Below, piece after piece: positions 15,212 to 24,041 of a stretch of 64,000 nucleotides of DNA; the stretch's first letter is position 1, and each line of letters opens with the position of its first letter. The position numbers and the translations under genes were made by a program. Source of the stretch: Thermotoga sp. SG1 (lineage in GTDB: Bacteria > Thermotogota > Thermotogae > Thermotogales > Thermotogaceae); assembly GCF_002865985.1 (NCBI RefSeq), contig NZ_LNDD01000004.1, positions 310,001 to 374,000 of the forward strand. The letters are read 5' to 3'. The notes beneath the pieces are model-generated. The model ran no database searches, had not been told where the DNA came from, and saw only the letters and a program-made list of their open reading frames with translations.

Positions 15212-16711
15212 ATGAAATTCGACGTAAATTTTAAAGAGCTTATTAGAGGGGGAGTGGTTCCGCTAAGAGGAGAAAACAATTTCTCTGTTTGGGTCAAAAT
15301 AATGTGCAATAACATAACATCCTCACAATTGGAAAAACTGGCTGATATCTCAGAAAAGTATGGTAAAGGATATTTTCTCCTGACCACCAACCAGATTCCA
15401 ATCATTCCTCACGTGAAAGGTTCTGATATTCCCAAAGTCAGAAAGGAACTGGAGCAGGTAAAAGCTGAGTTCGAAGCTTGTGGCTCGAGAATAAGAAGCG
15501 TGAAGGTATGTTACAGTAACAATTTGTGCCCATATGCCAAAACAAATCCCATGTCTCTCGGAGAAAAGTTAGACAGGTTTTTCTACATAAGGGACTTAAG
15601 GCATAAAATGAAAATAGTAGTTGCAGGTTGTGAAAAAGGATGTACTATTCCCCGGGCTTTGGGAGATGTTGGTTTTGTGGGAGTTGATTCGGGAAAGTAC
15701 GATGTTTACTTTGGAGGAAGATTAGGATTAAAACCCAACATTGGAGTTAAAATTGCGGAAAATCTTTCAGAAGAGGAATGTGTTGTGTTGCTTGAAAATT
15801 ACGTCGAATTGTTGAGAGAACGTTTCCATAAAGAAGAGAGAGCAGCTGATGTTCTTGAAGTGCTAGGACTGGATGAAGTAAAAAAGGCTTTGACAAGGGA
15901 TCTCAAAAGGAAACCGTCGATAGAGTTTGGAAAATGTGAAACAAAGATAAACGAAAAAGAGAAAAAAACTGTCGTGAGAGTCAAAGCTCTGTGCGGGGAA
16001 ATAACCTCGAATCAGGCTAGAAAACTAGCAGAAATAGCCCGGAAATACGGTCGGGGGTTCATACACATAGGAGTTAGAGGGACACCGGAGATACCATATG
16101 TCGACGAGAAAGATGTGGATAGGATCTTAACCGAACTAAAATTCGTCGGTCTGGAGATATTGAATATCGGTGTTATCCAGAAGAAAGGCTTTGACAATAT
16201 GATAACGTGTTTTGGAAAAGATTGCTTGCACAGTAATGCAAACACCCAAAGTTTGCTTAAAAAAATAGATAAAGTAATAAAAGAAATGAAATTAGAAACT
16301 CCCGGGGTTTTCAAAATATCCGCTTCCGGTTGTCCCAACAATTGTGCCCTTTCACCTCTGAGTAATCTCGGTTTCACGGGAGTTGTAGAAGTCGAGGTGA
16401 TACCCGAAAAATGCAATGGATGTAACCTGTGTGTTTTAAACTGTAAAGTCAAAGCGATTACCTTGACAAACGGCAAAGCAGTAATAGATCGAGAGAAATG
16501 CAAAAATTGTGGCGAGTGTATGAGAATTTGTCCAACAGACGCTATCGCTGCAAAGCGTTATGGTTTTATGGTATACCGCGGTGGAAGAGACCTGAACATA
16601 GACAAGACCCGTCTTGGAGTGGAAGGAGAGAAATTTCTAACAGAAGAAGAGGCACTGCAGGTGTTCAAAGAAGAGGTGATGAATTTTGTTGAAAGAAGAA
16701 AAAATACTTAA
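15212..16711 (+). CDS. Fused two-domain sulfite reductase with ferredoxin module
   Basis: 499 residues made of two sulfite-reductase units plus ferredoxin. Unit 1 (about 1-230) has C-X5-C (CYSNNLC) and C-X3-C (CEKGC). Unit 2 (about 245-390) has C-X4-C (CFGKDC) and C-X3-C (CPNNC). A 2[4Fe-4S] ferredoxin domain follows (CNGCNLCVLNC and CKNCGECMRIC), then a tail. Both units keep siroheme/[4Fe-4S] cysteines, whereas in assimilatory enzymes one half is usually degenerate. It should reduce sulfite to sulfide using ferredoxin electrons. No siroheme synthesis gene is nearby. Confidence 0.85.
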   Translation: MKFDVNFKELIRGGVVPLRGENNFSVWVKIMCNNITSSQLEKLADISEKYGKGYFLLTTNQIPIIPHVKGSDIPKVRKELEQVKAEFEACGSRIRSVKVCYSNNLCPYAKTNPMSLGEKLDRFFYIRDLRHKMKIVVAGCEKGCTIPRALGDVGFVGVDSGKYDVYFGGRLGLKPNIGVKIAENLSEEECVVLLENYVELLRERFHKEERAADVLEVLGLDEVKKALTRDLKRKPSIEFGKCETKINEKEKKTVVRVKALCGEITSNQARKLAEIARKYGRGFIHIGVRGTPEIPYVDEKDVDRILTELKFVGLEILNIGVIQKKGFDNMITCFGKDCLHSNANTQSLLKKIDKVIKEMKLETPGVFKISASGCPNNCALSPLSNLGFTGVVEVEVIPEKCNGCNLCVLNCKVKAITLTNGKAVIDREKCKNCGECMRICPTDAIAAKRYGFMVYRGGRDLNIDKTRLGVEGEKFLTEEEALQVFKEEVMNFVERRKNT

Positions 16712-17069
16712 ACTGCTGATGATTTTTCTTGGTACCCTATTTGTCATTCTAGGAACAGTTGGGATATTTCTTCCCCTCGTACCTACCACTCCCTTTCTTT
16801 TGCTTGCAGCAATATGTTACGCCAGGGGATCCAGGAAATTCTACGAATGGCTGGTGAATAACAAACTCTTCGGGAATTATATTAAAAATTATCTAGAAAA
16901 GCGCGGGATCCCTTTAAAAACAAAAATTGTAGCGATCGCTACATTGTGGGGGTTCATCCTGCTATCAGCCTTTACAATAATCCCACTGGTACTGGTAAAG
17001 TTTCTTCTTTTATTAATAGCTGTCGGCGTTACCATACACATTCTGAAGTTACCAACACTAAAAAAATAA
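16686..17069 (+). CDS. DUF454/YbaN-family membrane protein
   Basis: 127-residue protein with three to four hydrophobic segments and the DUF454 pattern GTVGIFLPLVPTTPFLLLAA followed by a CYARGSRKFYEWL motif. It is the last gene of the operon and overlaps the sulfite reductase by 26 bp. Start TTG 16686 follows GAGGTGAT. Function of the family is unknown. Confidence 0.85.
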   Translation: MLKEEKILKLLMIFLGTLFVILGTVGIFLPLVPTTPFLLLAAICYARGSRKFYEWLVNNKLFGNYIKNYLEKRGIPLKTKIVAIATLWGFILLSAFTIIPLVLVKFLLLLIAVGVTIHILKLPTLKK

Positions 17070-17100
17070 CCGGGGGAACTCCCCGGTTATTCTATTTTTC
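17065..17100. terminator. Bidirectional intrinsic terminator
   Basis: An 11-bp perfect stem (17065-17075 with 17081-17091) with loop GAACT, flanked by A-tract on one side and TCTATTTTTC on the other, serves both converging operons. The stop codons of the DUF454 gene and of sat both lie within the stem. Confidence 0.9.
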
Positions 17101-18241
17101 TATAATATTCCATCAGAATTCTTGCCACTTCCGGTCTTATAAACTCTGGTGGTGGCATGATACCATTTGAGAGCATCTCCCTTACCTTCGTTCCACTCAA
17201 GAACACGTGGTCCTCATCGCCGTGTGGGCATGTTTTCTTTGTGGCCATCCCACCACATTTCTTACAGTAAAAAGCGTGCTCGAATTTCAACGGAACGATC
17301 CCTATCTCCTCCGGTTTGAACTGATCGAATATCTCCTGAGCTTCATAGGTTCCATAGTAATTTCCAACACCCGCATGATCCCTTCCCACTATGAAGTGTG
17401 TGCAGCCGTAGTTCTTCCTGCATATCGCATGAAACACTGCCTCCCTGGGACCAGCGTACCTCATGTTCACAGGAAAAACTCCCAGAAAAACTCTTTCTTT
17501 CGGATAGTAGTTCTCTATGATCACCTCGTATGTCTTCATTCTCACCTCTGCCGGAATGTCTCCCTTCTTGGTCTTCCCAACAAGGGGGTTTATGAAGAGC
17601 CCGTCCACTATCTCCAGCGCCACCTTCTGAAGGTACTCGTGTGCTCTGTGTATGGGATTTCTCGTCTGAAACGCCACAACTGTTTTCCATCCCTTTTCCT
17701 GAAAGATCCTTCTTGTGTCTTTGGGATCGAATCTGTACTCGAGAAAATCTCTGTGCTCTATCCTTCTGACAAGCCAGATCTTCCCCCCAAGACACACATC
17801 ACCCTGGGAGTATAAAAACGCAACACCAGGGTGTGCATCTTCCTCTGTTTTGTAGACTTTCTTCGCCTCCTCTTTCTTTCTCCTCTCAAACTTGTCCTCC
17901 ACCTGCATCACAGCATACAGCTTCCCATCTTCTCCATGGATCGCAACCCAGTCTCCTATCTTTATCTCTCCTGCTTCTTCTTTTGAAACTGAAAGCACGA
18001 TGGGTATGGTCCAGATCACTCCGCTTGAGAGTCTCATATCATCGAGAACGAAGTCGTAATCCTCTTTCGTCATGAAGCCTTCCAGTGGACTGAACAAGCC
18101 TGTTGCTATGTTCTCCAGCTCCGACAGATCCCAGTAGGATACGGTTATCTTCTTCATCTCTCTTGCCCTGGCTTCCCAATCCTTTTTCTCTTCGCCCTCT
18201 ACAATCCTGTTCACCAGTTTTCCTCCGTGCGGTGCAATCAC
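17087..18241 (-). CDS. sat: Sulfate adenylyltransferase (ATP sulfurylase)
   Basis: Monofunctional ATP sulfurylase with [17 protein letters not shown] and [12 protein letters not shown] nucleotide/sulfate motifs and a zinc site (CKKCGG...CPHGDEDH). It makes APS from sulfate. GTG 18241 lies 6 nt after GGGAGGTG and gives the family-typical start [11 protein letters not shown]. The ATG at 18268 is upstream of that site and would overlap the next gene, so I reject it. It is the last gene of the cysC operon. Confidence 0.95.
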
Positions 18242-18257
18242 AGAAAACACCTCCCAT

Positions 18258-18680
18258 TTACAATTCAACGATCTCTATTCTTCTATGTCTTTTCTTAAGA
18301 GATTGCAGAACGGGCTTTGCTATAAAGTGCATCAATCCTTCTTTTTTTAGAACAACTCTGATGATCTCGGAACCCTCTCTCAGAATATTCTCTAAAATTT
18401 CTCTTAGATGTCCATTCTTTTTCTTCATTGTGTACCCACATCGTTCTCTCAGTTTTTCTAATCTCTTCATCAAGCACATTCTATCTTCTTCCAACTTTTT
18501 TCTAATCGCTTGGAAAAGTTCTTCTATTACCATCTCCCCCAACCACCCACTCTCCCCCACGTATTCAGCGTATATCTTTATCAAATTTTCATCAATCACG
18601 AACAACACTTTCGCTTCAGAACATATCTTTTGCAAAAAATCCTCTATGTTCAAGTCAAAATCCAGTAGCACGATAGTCAT
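18258..18680 (-). CDS. Hypothetical protein between transporter and sat
   Basis: 140 residues, not recognised. The N-terminus ([17 protein letters not shown]) and the following helices look like a small alpha/beta protein, perhaps nucleotide-binding or universal-stress-like, but no diagnostic motif is visible. The centre is highly charged and helical ([19 protein letters not shown]). It sits 6 bp after the transporter and 16 bp before sat, which suggests a role in sulfate uptake or activation. Confidence 0.75.
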
Positions 18681-18686
18681 TTCTTT

Positions 18687-20024
18687 TCACCCCTGAGCAA
18701 ACATCCAGAACCCTACGAACACCAAGAGAATGGCACACGACATGATAGTCATAAATCCTCCATAAATCAGAAAATCGCGGAATTCCACCTGCCCGGTAGA
18801 AAATAAAATAGATACACTTGGTGACCCTGTTGGAAGGATATAAGCGAAACCTGTTATCATGGATATCAGAACAGCCATGGCTTCCGGTGATAAATGATTT
18901 TTCCCTAATAAAGGAAGAGCTAGCTGCGCTAGAATCAATGAAGCAGCCGAATTGCTCATGATTTCCGTCAAAACAATACCTACTCCAATTATAGTCACTA
19001 TTTCAAAAAAACTGGGTAATGATCCTATACCTGTTATGTTCACAATCCATTGCGAAACGCCTGTTTCGTTCATCATCTTTCCCAAAACTATTGCCCCTCC
19101 GTACATTAAGATAATCCCCCAGTTTACGTTCCTCTCTACATCGGTCCACGTAATGACATTCGTCAAAAAAAGTAAAACTACTGTCCCCAGTGCTATGTTG
19201 GCAATTCCCAACTTATCTCCAGCGAATATCCATAAAAATACTGTTGTTAGAGTAATAACAGCCACTGTGAACTTTTCCTTCGGATCTGTGGCCTTTCCTC
19301 CTTGAAAAGTTACTTTTATATTTACCTGAGGTGTTGTTTTTATTATCACGAGGATCGATACCACCAAGATCGACACAGTGATAGGAAATGACAGTGCTAT
19401 CCATTTCAGGAACGAAATTTCTTTGTTATAAAATGATTCAACGATCGCCATTACGAGAGGTGAACGAGCCCCTCCGAGTGGTGTGGTACTTCCTCCTAAC
19501 GTTGCACCCCACAAAATAGAGAAAAGTACTGATTTCATGAGTTTTTTGTTATCCTCGCTATCAATGCAGTTCATCAATTCTATAGCAATAGGTACCAATA
19601 TGGCCACAACACCGTGGCTAACTGTCCATAAAGACAGGAAATAAGAAGCCAATGCAAAGCTCACTGAAATTTTCTTTGAATTCTTCCCAAATGTCCTTAT
19701 GAACCACAGAGCGATATCTTGCGTAATTCCAGTCTTTTTCAGAGCAGAACTTAGAATGAAGGATCCCAGAAGAAAGAAAACAGGTGTGCTTCCGAATAAC
19801 GAGTAAATTTCCTCTGAGTCTGCGAGACCCAAGGTTGCAAATAGTGTGATCATAAATATACTGGTTATCATTATAGGCACAATTTGTGAAGCCCACCACA
19901 ACACACCCACAATGAACACCGAGAGGGTTTTGAATCCCTCCTGAGACAAACCCGATGGTGGTTCGAACACGAAAGGAATCAATAGTATGACGAACGACGT
20001 TACTAGTATAAGGACCCTTTTCAT
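18687..20024 (-). CDS. SLC13/DASS-family anion transporter (probable sulfate importer)
   Basis: 445 residues with about eleven hydrophobic segments and the paired DASS motifs, GGSTTPLGGARSPL in the first half and LTEIMSNSAASLILAQLALP in the second. The family carries dicarboxylates or sulfate with sodium. Location between cysC and sat argues for sulfate. Start ATG 20024 is 6 bp after the small ORF. Confidence 0.88.
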   Translation of the reverse strand: MKRVLILVTSFVILLIPFVFEPPSGLSQEGFKTLSVFIVGVLWWASQIVPIMITSIFMITLFATLGLADSEEIYSLFGSTPVFFLLGSFILSSALKKTGITQDIALWFIRTFGKNSKKISVSFALASYFLSLWTVSHGVVAILVPIAIELMNCIDSEDNKKLMKSVLFSILWGATLGGSTTPLGGARSPLVMAIVESFYNKEISFLKWIALSFPITVSILVVSILVIIKTTPQVNIKVTFQGGKATDPKEKFTVAVITLTTVFLWIFAGDKLGIANIALGTVVLLFLTNVITWTDVERNVNWGIILMYGGAIVLGKMMNETGVSQWIVNITGIGSLPSFFEIVTIIGVGIVLTEIMSNSAASLILAQLALPLLGKNHLSPEAMAVLISMITGFAYILPTGSPSVSILFSTGQVEFRDFLIYGGFMTIMSCAILLVFVGFWMFAQG

Positions 20025-20029
20025 AGCAT

Positions 20030-20200
20030 TTAATCCAGATATCCAAAGTCCTTCAATCTTTTTATGATGAATTCTCTTTCTTCTCGAGTAGGGGAATTTT
20101 CTTCGGTCTTTAAAAGCATACGAACTATATCTCTGCTTCTCTTAGGTCTAAAGATTTTCCTGTACAAGATTTTAATTATTCTCTTTTTTATTTCCCTCAT
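20030..20200 (-). CDS. Small basic protein (56 aa), unnoticed ORF in cysC operon
   Basis: An ATG-started ORF of 56 codons fills the gap between cysC (stop 3 bp upstream of its ATG) and the transporter (start 5 bp downstream of its stop). The protein begins MREIKKRIIKILYRKIF and ends KRLKDFGYLD. It is strongly basic at the start and amphipathic later. GGGTGATC lies about 10 nt upstream. Tight packing on both sides supports a real gene. No known family recognised; a peripheral membrane partner of the transporter is one guess. Confidence 0.6.
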   Translation of the reverse strand: MREIKKRIIKILYRKIFRPKRSRDIVRMLLKTEENSPTREEREFIIKRLKDFGYLD

Positions 20201-20203
20201 AAC

Positions 20204-20797
20204 CTAGATCACCCCTCTTTCTTTCAGATAATTCAGGATTTTTTCGACGGACTCTTCCACAGTTTCTTTGTCAGTTTCCAGGATGATTTCAGGGTCTTCT
20301 GGTTCTTCGTAAGGTGCGGAGATACCGGTGAACTCCTTTATTTCTCCAGCCAAAGCTTTTTTATACAAACCCTTTGGATCCCTTTTTATAAGCACCTCGA
20401 GAGGGCATTTCACATAGACCTCTATGAACTCTCCTTCTGCCAGAAGAGATCTAGCTCTTTTCCTGTCCTCCTTGTAGGGAGAGATGAAAGCAGTGATCGT
20501 GATGATACCAGCGTCAGCAAAAAGCTTTGCAACTTCGCTTATTCTCCTTATATTCTCTTTTCTATCTTCCGGTGAGAATCCAAGATCACTGTTCAACCCG
20601 TGTCTGATGTTGTCACCATCTAAAACATAGGCAAGTTTCCCCATTTCAAGTAATCTCCACTCCAGTTCATGCGCAATGGTGGACTTCCCTGCCCCAGAAA
20701 GACCTGTGAGCCATATAACAACACCCTTTTGCCCAAGAAGTTTCTCCCTATCTTCTTTCTTTACTTTTCCTTCATGCCATATGATATGCTTTCGCAT
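20204..20797 (-). CDS. cysC: Adenylylsulfate (APS) kinase
   Basis: CysC family: Walker [15 protein letters not shown], the [16 protein letters not shown] segment, and [13 protein letters not shown] for APS binding. It makes PAPS from APS. ATG 20797 ([10 protein letters not shown]) is 7 nt after GGAGGTGAG; the upstream start at 20815 overlaps that site. First gene of the minus-strand sulfur operon, downstream of the shared promoter/operator. Confidence 0.95.
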
Positions 20798-20823
20798 CAC
20801 AAAGCTCACCTCCACCGATAATT

Positions 20824-20902
20824 ATCTAGTAAATCTATAGATTTTTTAGATATTTATCTATTGTGTTTGTGGTATTGTATCATTCATAATTGCTCGTGTC
20901 AA
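20824..20902 (-). promoter_or_regulatory. Promoter and operator of the cysC-sat operon
   Basis: Minus strand TTGACA (20897-20902), 17-bp spacer, TACAAT (20874-20879), then ACCACAAACA (20864-20873). A 19-bp inverted repeat ATCTA-N9-TAGAT lies at 20824-20842 and matches the rrf2 repeat at 14 of 19 positions. Within it AAATCTATAGATTT (20831-20844) is a perfect palindrome. The same order as upstream of rrf2 implies a common regulator. Confidence 0.72.
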
Positions 20903-20936: not shown

Positions 20937-21088
20937 TTGAAGAGGTTGATATGAGGTGGTATAATATAAACAGAAAGTGAGAAAAATCACAAACCTCCTG
21001 AGGTGGAGGGAAAAATCCTGACACCGGGGGAGGGGATAGATGAAAGTACACCCCTCTCCCGGTATACGGAGAGGGGGTTTTCATTTTG
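20937..21088 (+). promoter_or_regulatory. Promoter and structured leader of the hydrogenase-maturation operon
   Basis: TTGAAG (20937-20942), 17-bp spacer, TATAAT (20960-20965). The leader has a small hairpin (CCTCC 20994-20998 with GGAGG 21005-21009). A 12-bp stem can form between 21024-21035 and 21051-21062. A 9-bp hairpin can instead form between 21051-21059 and 21068-21076, followed by GTTTTCATTTT. The last two exclude each other. The downstream hairpin also buries GAGAGGGGG, the ribosome-binding site of the first gene. It looks like a riboswitch or attenuator of unknown class. Confidence 0.6.
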
Positions 21089-21334
21089 GAGAAGAGATTT
21101 TACATACTCACAATCGTTGTGGAGGACAGGGAAAGGGCCTACAGACAGGTAAACGAACTTCTTCACAACTTCGCAGAAGACATTCTCCTCAGGGTTGGAT
21201 ATCCCGTCAAGGAAGAGAACATGGCGATCATATTCCTCGTTTTGAAGACAGACAACGATACGGTGGGAGCCCTCTCCGGAAAGCTCGGTCAAATTCCCGG
21301 GGTTCGTGTGAAAACAGTTCCCTTAAAGAGGTGA
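21086..21334 (+). CDS. TM1266-type putative iron-only hydrogenase system regulator
   Basis: 82-residue ACT/NikR-like beta-alpha-beta protein (MEKRFYILTIVVEDRERA..., VKTVPLKR end), matching the family named after T. maritima TM1266 that accompanies [FeFe]-hydrogenase maturation genes. It lacks a DNA-binding domain, so the name regulator is only by association. Start is TTG 21086 behind the GAGGGGG of the leader hairpin. Confidence 0.85.
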   Translation: MEKRFYILTIVVEDRERAYRQVNELLHNFAEDILLRVGYPVKEENMAIIFLVLKTDNDTVGALSGKLGQIPGVRVKTVPLKR

Positions 21335-21339
21335 TGTGC

Positions 21340-22755
21340 ATGTACGTGTTCACAAGAGAGCGCGTGGAAAGCAAATCTTTCATACCGGAAGAGAAGATAT
21401 TCGAACTACTTGAGAAGACGAAAAACCCGGATCCAGCAAGGGTGAGGGAGATCATACAGAAATCTCTGGACAAGAACAGACTCGATCCCGAAGAAACCGC
21501 CACCCTTTTGAACGTGGAAGATCCGGAGCTTCTGGAGGAAATATTCGAAGCGGCCCGTACTCTGAAAGAAAAAATCTACGGAAACAGGATCGTTCTCTTT
21601 GCACCACTCTACATAGGAAACGATTGTGTCAACGACTGTGTGTACTGTGGCTTTAGAGTCTCCAACAAGTTGGTGGAAAGAAAAACTCTCACAGAAGAAC
21701 AACTGAGGGAAGAAGTCAAAGCCCTCGTTTCTCAGGGCCACAAAAGGCTCATAGTGGTCTACGGAGAGCATCCGAAGTACTCTCCAGAGTTCATCGCAAA
21801 AACGATCGACATCGTCTACAACACCAAACACGGAAGCGGTGAGATCAGAAGAGTGAACGTCAACGCCGCCCCCCAGACGATCGAAGGCTACAAGATCATA
21901 AAGTCCGTTGGAATAGGTACTTTCCAGATCTTCCAGGAGACCTACCACAAGAAAACGTATCTGAAACTCCATCCCAGAGGTCCCAAGTCGAACTACAACT
22001 GGAGACTTTATGGTCTTGACAGAGCGATGATGGCCGGTATCGACGACGTTGGAATAGGAGCCCTCTTTGGTCTTTACGACTGGAAATTTGAAGTGATGGG
22101 ACTTCTTTACCATACAATTCACCTGGAAGAAAGATTTGGAGTGGGACCACACACCATTTCCTTCCCGAGAATAAAGCCCGCTATAAATACTCCTTACTCA
22201 CAAAAACCGGAGCACGCTGTAAGTGACGAAGACTTCAAGAAACTCGTTGCCATCATAAGACTGTCTGTTCCATACACGGGAATGATCCTCACAGCAAGAG
22301 AGCCCGCAAAACTCAGAGACGAAGTGATAAAACTCGGTGTTTCACAGATAGACGCCGGATCTAGAATAGGAATCGGAGCGTACTCTCACAGAGAAGACGA
22401 TGAAGACAGAAAAAGACAGTTCACACTCGAAGATCCAAGACCACTCGATCATGTGATGAAGAGTCTCCTGAAAGAGGGATTCGTCCCATCTTTCTGCACA
22501 GCGTGTTACAGAGCAGGAAGAACAGGGGAACACTTCATGGAATTTGCCATTCCCGGTTTTGTCAAAAATTTCTGTACACCGAACGCCCTCTTCACACTTC
22601 AAGAGTATCTCTGTGACTACGCAACAGAAGAAACAAGAAAAATCGGCGAAGAAGTTATCGAAAAAGAACTCCAGAAGATGAACCCGAAGATCAGAGAAAA
22701 GGTGAGAGAAGGACTCGAAAAGATAAAGCGCGGTGAAAGGGATGTCAGATTTTAA
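21340..22755 (+). CDS. hydG: [FeFe]-hydrogenase maturase HydG
   Basis: Radical-SAM tyrosine lyase of 471 residues that makes the CO and CN ligands of the H-cluster. The SAM cluster motif is CX3CX2C (CVNDCVYC). A C-terminal CX2CX22C (CTACYRAGRTGEHFMEF...C) binds the auxiliary cluster carrying the dangler iron, distinguishing HydG from ThiH. ATG 21340 lies 6 nt after GAGGTG; ATG 21334 is too close to the site. Confidence 0.95.
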   Translation: MYVFTRERVESKSFIPEEKIFELLEKTKNPDPARVREIIQKSLDKNRLDPEETATLLNVEDPELLEEIFEAARTLKEKIYGNRIVLFAPLYIGNDCVNDCVYCGFRVSNKLVERKTLTEEQLREEVKALVSQGHKRLIVVYGEHPKYSPEFIAKTIDIVYNTKHGSGEIRRVNVNAAPQTIEGYKIIKSVGIGTFQIFQETYHKKTYLKLHPRGPKSNYNWRLYGLDRAMMAGIDDVGIGALFGLYDWKFEVMGLLYHTIHLEERFGVGPHTISFPRIKPAINTPYSQKPEHAVSDEDFKKLVAIIRLSVPYTGMILTAREPAKLRDEVIKLGVSQIDAGSRIGIGAYSHREDDEDRKRQFTLEDPRPLDHVMKSLLKEGFVPSFCTACYRAGRTGEHFMEFAIPGFVKNFCTPNALFTLQEYLCDYATEETRKIGEEVIEKELQKMNPKIREKVREGLEKIKRGERDVRF

Positions 22756-22987
22756 AAAGATCCTGGAAGAGATAGCGGAAAAATACGACTGCAAAATCTG
22801 GATATCTGAGCGGATCGGAAGAAGATGGTCCTTCTATAAAGACCTGAAAGCGGGAAAGGAAAAGTTTCTCCCTGCGGAACTTCTCGTTGAAAATGGAAGG
22901 TTTGGTGTCTTCGCAGAAGATTTCCCTGAAGAGAAAAAGGATGAAGTAGTTCCCTTGTTGAAAAGGATTCTGGAAAGATTGGAGTGA
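22742..22987 (+). CDS. Small protein between hydG and hydE (TM1268-like)
   Basis: 81-residue alpha/beta protein (MSDFKKILEEIAEKYDCKIWISERIGRRWSFYKD...) with no motif I recognise. It overlaps hydG by 14 bp and ends 7 bp before hydE. ATG 22742 follows GGTGAAAGGG; a GTG at 22733 is possible. Its position inside the maturation operon suggests an accessory role. Confidence 0.8.
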   Translation: MSDFKKILEEIAEKYDCKIWISERIGRRWSFYKDLKAGKEKFLPAELLVENGRFGVFAEDFPEEKKDEVVPLLKRILERLE

Positions 22988-22994
22988 TAAAGTC

Positions 22995-24041
22995 ATGACA
23001 GGACGGGAGATTCTGGAAAAACTTGAAAGAAGAGAGTTTACAAGGGACGTCTTGAGAGAGGCCCTCTCCAAAAACGATAAAGAGTTCAACGAAGAACTCT
23101 TCAAACTCGCAGACGCGGTGAGGAGAAAATATGTCGGTGACGAGGTTCACATCAGAGCGATCATCGAGTTTTCCAACGTGTGCAGAAAGAACTGTCTTTA
23201 CTGTGGTCTTAGAAGGGACAACAAGAACTTGAAGAGGTACCGCATGACACCAGAAGAGATCGTCGAGAGGGCAAAACTCGCCGTTCAATTCGGTGCGAAA
23301 ACGATCGTTCTTCAGTCTGGAGAGGACCCTTACTACATGCCGGATGTGATTTCCGATGTGGTGAGAGAGATAAAGAAGATGGGAGTTGCCGTCACACTGA
23401 GTCTTGGAGAGTGGCCAAGAAAGTATTACGAAAAGTGGAAGGAAGCGGGAGCGGACAGATACCTTCTGAGACACGAAACGGCAAATCCGATCCTTCACAA
23501 AAGATTGAGACCAGATACGTCTTTTGAGAACAGGGTGAAATGTCTTCTCACTCTGAAAGAACTCGGCTACGAGACGGGAGCAGGTTCAATGGTGGGTCTT
23601 CCAGGCCAGACGATCGAAGATCTTGTGGACGACCTTTTGTTTCTGAAAGAACACGATTTCGACATGGTAGGTATAGGCCCCTTCATACCACACCCCGACA
23701 CACCTCTTGCAAACGAAAAGAAGGGAGATTTCACCCTCACGTTGAAGATGGTGGCACTCACAAGGATCCTTCTTCCAGATTCAAACATTCCGGCGACCAC
23801 CGCGATGGGAACGATCGTTCCAGGTGGAAGAGAAATCACACTCAGATGTGGAGCAAACGTCATCATGCCGAACTGGACCCCTTCACCTTACAGACAGCTC
23901 TACCAGCTCTACCCCGGAAAGATCTGTGTCTTCGAAAGAGACACCGCCTGCATCCCCTGTGTTATGAAGATGATAGAACACCTTGGAAGAAAACCCGGAA
24001 GAGACTGGGGAAACAGAAAGCGGGTCTTTGAAACGGTCTGA
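22995..24041 (+). CDS. hydE: [FeFe]-hydrogenase maturase HydE
   Basis: Radical-SAM protein of 348 residues with the CX3CX2C motif (CRKNCLYC), the GSMVGLPGQT strand and a C-terminal Cys group (CGANVIMPNWTPSPY, CIPC) seen in some HydE. It acts with HydG in building the diiron subcluster. HydF, the scaffold GTPase, is not in this window. Confidence 0.95.
   Translation: MTGREILEKLERREFTRDVLREALSKNDKEFNEELFKLADAVRRKYVGDEVHIRAIIEFSNVCRKNCLYCGLRRDNKNLKRYRMTPEEIVERAKLAVQFGAKTIVLQSGEDPYYMPDVISDVVREIKKMGVAVTLSLGEWPRKYYEKWKEAGADRYLLRHETANPILHKRLRPDTSFENRVKCLLTLKELGYETGAGSMVGLPGQTIEDLVDDLLFLKEHDFDMVGIGPFIPHPDTPLANEKKGDFTLTLKMVALTRILLPDSNIPATTAMGTIVPGGREITLRCGANVIMPNWTPSPYRQLYQLYPGKICVFERDTACIPCVMKMIEHLGRKPGRDWGNRKRVFETV

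Follow-up and report, generated by a model that had tools for sequence, protein, structure and literature searches.

A candidate RNA OFF switch ahead of [FeFe]-hydrogenase maturation genes in Thermotoga and other bacteria

The window examined here, a 64,000-nucleotide (nt) stretch of the Thermotoga sp. SG1 genome (contig NZ_LNDD01000004.1, positions 310,001 to 374,000), carries an operon for the maturation of [FeFe]-hydrogenase, in which a gene of the TM1266 family of putative hydrogenase regulators is followed by hydG, a small TM1268-like gene and hydE (Table 1). The gene 5′ of the operon's leader lies on the opposite strand. Comparison of this leader with its relatives indicates that it is very probably a conserved RNA that acts in cis as an OFF switch on [FeFe]-hydrogenase maturation.

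A preliminary description of the leader had proposed a switch in which two competing stems share a strand. Both stems are present where it placed them, although the longer one comprises 13 pairs, one of them G-U, rather than the 12 originally given. The alternative 9-bp hairpin has the coordinates first assigned to it, with a T-rich run after it. This hairpin is followed by GTTTTCATTTT and does hide the ribosome-binding site of the TM1266-like gene, as had been suggested: the site, GGAGAGGGGG, is part of the 3′ arm, 8 nt from the TTG start codon. The GC-rich hairpin and the U-rich run after it form an intrinsic terminator, and this arrangement is kept in most Thermotogota leaders. The leader as a whole folds far more stably than its dinucleotide shuffles (z = -4.7; 0/200 as stable).

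Table 1. Features of the leader and operon, in window coordinates
Feature	Position	Strand	Evidence or remark
Promoter-like TTGAAG-N17-TATAAT, extended -10 TG	20937..20965	+	Consensus scan alone; predicted start ~20971
Rex-operator-like palindrome AAGTGA-N6-TCACAA	20975..20992	.	2 mismatches to TTGTGA-N6-TCACAA
Conserved RNA domain	20994..21033	+	Covariance model matches, covariation, fold z = -4.2
P1	20994-20998/21029-21033
Tandem G·A site 1	21000-21001/21026-21027		GA/GG in Thermotoga genus
P2 (4-bp helix)	21002-21005/21022-21025
Tandem G·A site 2	21006-21007/21020-21021
P3	21009-21010/21017-21018
Antiterminator stem (ON state), 21023-21035/21051-21063	21023..21063	+	Own-arm pairing in 48 leaders; refolding series
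Intrinsic terminator (OFF state), hairpin 21051-21059/21068-21076 and T-rich run 21078-21087	21051..21087	+
Ribosome-binding site GGAGAGGGGG, within terminator 3′ arm	21068..21077	+	Sequence
TM1266-family putative hydrogenase regulator, TTG start	21086..21334	+	TIGR03959, 96 bits, cut-off 60.8; structure 2NZC
hydG	21340..22755	+	TIGR03955
Small gene between hydG and hydE, TM1268-like	22733..22987	+	Open frame
hydE	22995..24041	+	TIGR03956

The stretch best conserved across genera lies directly 5′ of the competing stems. This 40-nt domain, which the preliminary description missed along with its wide distribution, forms an extended hairpin with the pattern C-UGA-N4-RAR-G ... C-UGA-N4′-RAR-G. Tandem G·A pairs lie on either side of the 4-bp helix P2, so that the domain is nearly two-fold symmetric. 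In a 70-sequence alignment, both partners vary at eight of the 11 pairs, and 94.5% of cells pair, compared with at most 70% in slid versions. When copies outside Thermotogota were detected blind to P2, all four of its pairs were present in 28 of 57, and in none of the shuffles; every P2 position in these copies shows several Watson-Crick types. In Thermotoga the helix reads GGUG/CACC, and its clostridial versions are CGGG/CCCG, GCCA/UGGC, CCGC/GCGG or GUCA/UGAC: its sequence is replaced entirely between phyla while complementarity is kept. Covariation combined with a free sequence means that P2 is a real helix, and that the feature being preserved is the pair of tandem G·A sites. The element has what is expected of a riboswitch-type RNA, a conserved domain that resembles an aptamer and whose secondary structure covaries. 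Across the window and 20 representative loci, no Rfam 15 family matched it at the gathering threshold, and only chance matches appeared at E ≤ 10.

Searches of related genomes, by DNA and with a covariance model built from 26 sequences, recovered the domain 5′ of hyd genes in Thermotogota, Clostridia and further phyla, and conservation of the pairing strands among relatives is strong. Strong model copies occur in 62 Thermotogota genomes; Athalassotoga, Mesoaciditoga, Marinitoga and Thermosipho are among the carriers of the domain. The domain precedes TM1266-hydG-hydE operons, hydG alone or hydE alone, and is found 5′ of hydF elsewhere in genomes that carry it 5′ of TM1266; in Fervidobacterium-like genomes it also stands 5′ of a [FeFe]-hydrogenase gene. 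Beyond this phylum, carriers include metagenome-assembled genomes of Neomarinimicrobiota, where 16 of 19 matches are directly 5′ of TM1266, and of Ignavibacteriales (Bacteroidota). Seven Bacteroidota matches are directly 5′ of TM1266, among them all five with E < 1e-6. In Clostridia the domain is located 5′ of TM1266, between TM1266 and hydG, or immediately 5′ of hydG. Among 60 search windows beside 30 clostridial TM1266 genes, 13 scored at least 18 (one of these inside the hydG coding sequence); at the same score the antisense strand gave 0 and shuffles 0.3.

Several weaker matches were discarded as chance. Pattern matches in Butyrivibrio fall inside a peptidase-like reading frame, the inspected Thermotogota covariance matches with E > 0.01 are in coding DNA, and Bacteroidota matches with E of 0.004-0.018 that lack TM1266 are inside reading frames. 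One copy (locus L096, 3001-3045, genome G067) has an [FeFe]-hydrogenase-like gene on one side and, on the other, an ABC transporter (with substrate-binding protein, permease and ATPase), whose substrate could hint at a ligand. Another genome has two near-identical copies with no hyd gene found downstream, and a third copy 5′ of TM1266.

The 3′ half of the domain is the strand common to the domain and the long stem. In most Thermotogota this half, P2 strand included, is complementary to the terminator's 5′ arm and loop. Across 48 leaders, the mean pairing energy was -25.4 kcal/mol with a leader's own arm, -19.1 with the arms of other leaders and about -10 with shuffled arms. The pairing also tracks changes in P2 (CACC/GGUG, CAUC/GAUG, UAUC/GAUA). 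In computed folds the domain and the antiterminator are mutually exclusive, as are the antiterminator and the terminator, giving an expression platform exclusive with the domain, as in riboswitches. For the window leader at 80 °C, the ON fold and the OFF fold are about 2 kcal/mol apart, and in a refolding series the domain is complete before the second strand of the antiterminator has been transcribed. Conservation across phyla, together with covariation, supports the shared-strand switch originally proposed.

These folds suggest how the switch might operate. With the effector absent, 21051-21063 would capture the 3′ half of the domain as the antiterminator, leaving the ribosome-binding site free, so that transcription and translation could proceed. 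An effector holding the domain, with its three helices and two tandem G·A loops, would release 21051-21059 for the terminator; since the folds are mutually exclusive, transcription would then end and the ribosome-binding site would be hidden. Lineages that lack the terminator use a different layout. In Mesoaciditoga, Athalassotoga and certain Neomarinimicrobiota and Clostridia, the ribosome-binding site (e.g., RAGGAGG) is in P1 of the domain or directly 3′ of it, just before the start codon. Both layouts predict that a folded domain turns the genes off, and it is from them that we infer the OFF direction. Four hydG leaders of the Athalassotoga/Mesoaciditoga group contain a short reading frame whose ribosome-binding site lies in the domain and which continues into a terminator 5′ of hydG, perhaps an instance of translation-coupled attenuation.

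What would hold the domain? The best candidate for the effector is the TM1266 protein itself, which could plausibly act directly. We tentatively propose that TM1266 is an RNA-binding sensor of a symmetric RNA 'operator', whose two tandem G·A sites are separated by 4 bp, and through which it would control [FeFe]-hydrogenase assembly in several phyla. A dimer of the protein would bind the two-fold symmetric RNA and, in binding its own leader, would make the operon feed back on itself. HydG is present in 70 Thermotogota genomes, TM1266 accompanies it in 65, and the RNA occurs in 64 of those 65 (two copies being recovered with an unfiltered search). The RNA is found in none of the five genomes with HydG and no TM1266. 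As in autoregulatory leaders, the regulator gene is part of the controlled operon and co-occurs with the RNA, with the exception of two Clostridia genomes. TM1266 shares its fold with the C-terminal sensor domain of NikR (Foldseek TM 0.82-0.84), at about 15-21% identity, but, unlike NikR, lacks the ribbon-helix-helix DNA-binding domain. Its oligomer-forming sensor fold and the symmetry of the RNA fit each other.

The hairpins (RAT) recognised by LicT and SacY offer a parallel. These are protein-bound RNAs whose two similar internal loops fit a dimeric protein, and which decide between terminator and antiterminator. The present hairpin likewise has two similar internal loops and a terminator/antiterminator choice. 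However, its loops are UGA/RAR tandem G·A sites, holding the domain predicts termination rather than antitermination, and no CAT-domain protein is involved here.

Several observations weigh against TM1266 as the effector, or against the need for an RNA switch at all. All five HydG genomes that lack TM1266 come from a single genus, another member of which has both gene and RNA; one of the five carries hydG on a chromosome-sized contig. The joint absence is essentially one evolutionary event, so the link to TM1266 is supported, not proven. The two exceptional Clostridia genomes have the RNA 5′ of hydG and no detected TM1266, possibly reflecting incomplete assemblies, and many Clostridia with TM1266 have no recognisable RNA copy. 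Finally, the Rex-like site alone could account for regulation of the operon. This palindrome, which lies directly 5′ of the RNA domain and 3′ of the predicted start, is a putative second layer of control. Many Thermotogota leaders have a similar site just 5′ of the domain, and sites with at most two mismatches occur in 18 of 70 leaders against 0.18 expected. In Caldicellulosiruptor bescii, HydG is reported to belong to the Rex regulon (PMC6391272). In T. neapolitana, CO2 induces TM1266, hydG and hydE six- to seven-fold (PMC7039931); the operon is therefore regulated, and the effect is not assignable to the RNA.

A serious rival, and one we regard as possible, is a metabolite or cofactor riboswitch of a new class, in which the double tandem-G·A core would itself bind a small molecule or metal tied to redox state or to assembly of the H-cluster, with the same OFF response. 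Nothing in the present results favours SAM, tyrosine or iron-sulfur related ligands, which the preliminary description had suggested for probing. One conserved domain serving both terminator and ribosome-binding-site platforms is riboswitch-like, the regulon is almost wholly one biosynthetic pathway, and the two clostridial copies without detected TM1266 would be explained. The resemblance extends to terminator-type OFF riboswitches such as SAM-I, TPP and FMN, in which, as here, the 3′ part of a conserved domain lying upstream competes with an antiterminator, the platform differs by lineage, and biosynthetic operons are under feedback. The core here, however, is a symmetric hairpin with no Rfam match, and it has no junction or pseudoknot that would form an obvious pocket. 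Few nucleotides are fixed outside the G·A sites, with P2 free in sequence, and the joint absence of RNA and TM1266 from the five genomes also counts against this reading.

It is improbable that the same switch answers to another RNA-binding protein, for example one of L7Ae type recognising the G·A sites. Proteins of the L7Ae family recognise tandem sheared G·A pairs, and as in kink-turn RNAs such pairs adjoin UGA in this domain. A kink-turn was nevertheless ruled out: P1 pairs covary in a register without the 3-nt bulge, which fits symmetric internal loops, and a regulon confined to hyd genes, together with the linkage to TM1266, points to a dedicated regulator. A plain terminator or constitutive leader, whose hairpin merely insulates the operon, would account for the terminator-like hairpin and is very unlikely, given that the upstream gene is on the opposite strand and that the conserved domain and covarying antiterminator would serve no purpose. 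Least credible is a DNA operator with irrelevant RNA structure, for although the domain is built of short, repeated half-sites that are conserved, and a Rex-like DNA site lies just upstream, P2 is swapped fully between phyla yet stays complementary, and terminator arms follow its changes, which indicates RNA pairing.

Around the operon, an apparent sulfur-assimilation cluster adjoins the leader (15212-20815), with genes for a sulfite-reductase-like protein, sulfate adenylyltransferase, a DASS-like transporter and adenylyl-sulfate kinase, and a divergent promoter-like site near 20874-20902. The TM1268-like gene has no NCBIfam match. The TM1266 protein of the window also matches the CPF_0552 family weakly, and a distant TM1266 paralogue below the family cut-off is encoded in the same genome (G000:C1:264857-265075) and in relatives.

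A riboswitch or leader RNA for hyd maturation was not found in the open literature searched, and an earlier mention of the motif is possible. The main texts of three RNA-discovery papers (Weinberg 2010, Brewer 2021, Stav 2019) do not mention hydrogenase.

In at least four phyla, with hosts that include hydrogen-producing thermophiles and Clostridia, the element marks a regulon of hydE, hydF, hydG and TM1266, to which the hydrogenase itself sometimes belongs. It presents a concrete 46-nt target for an effector search. For the TM1266 family, with a solved structure (2NZC) and no role found in the literature searched, it provides a testable first function.
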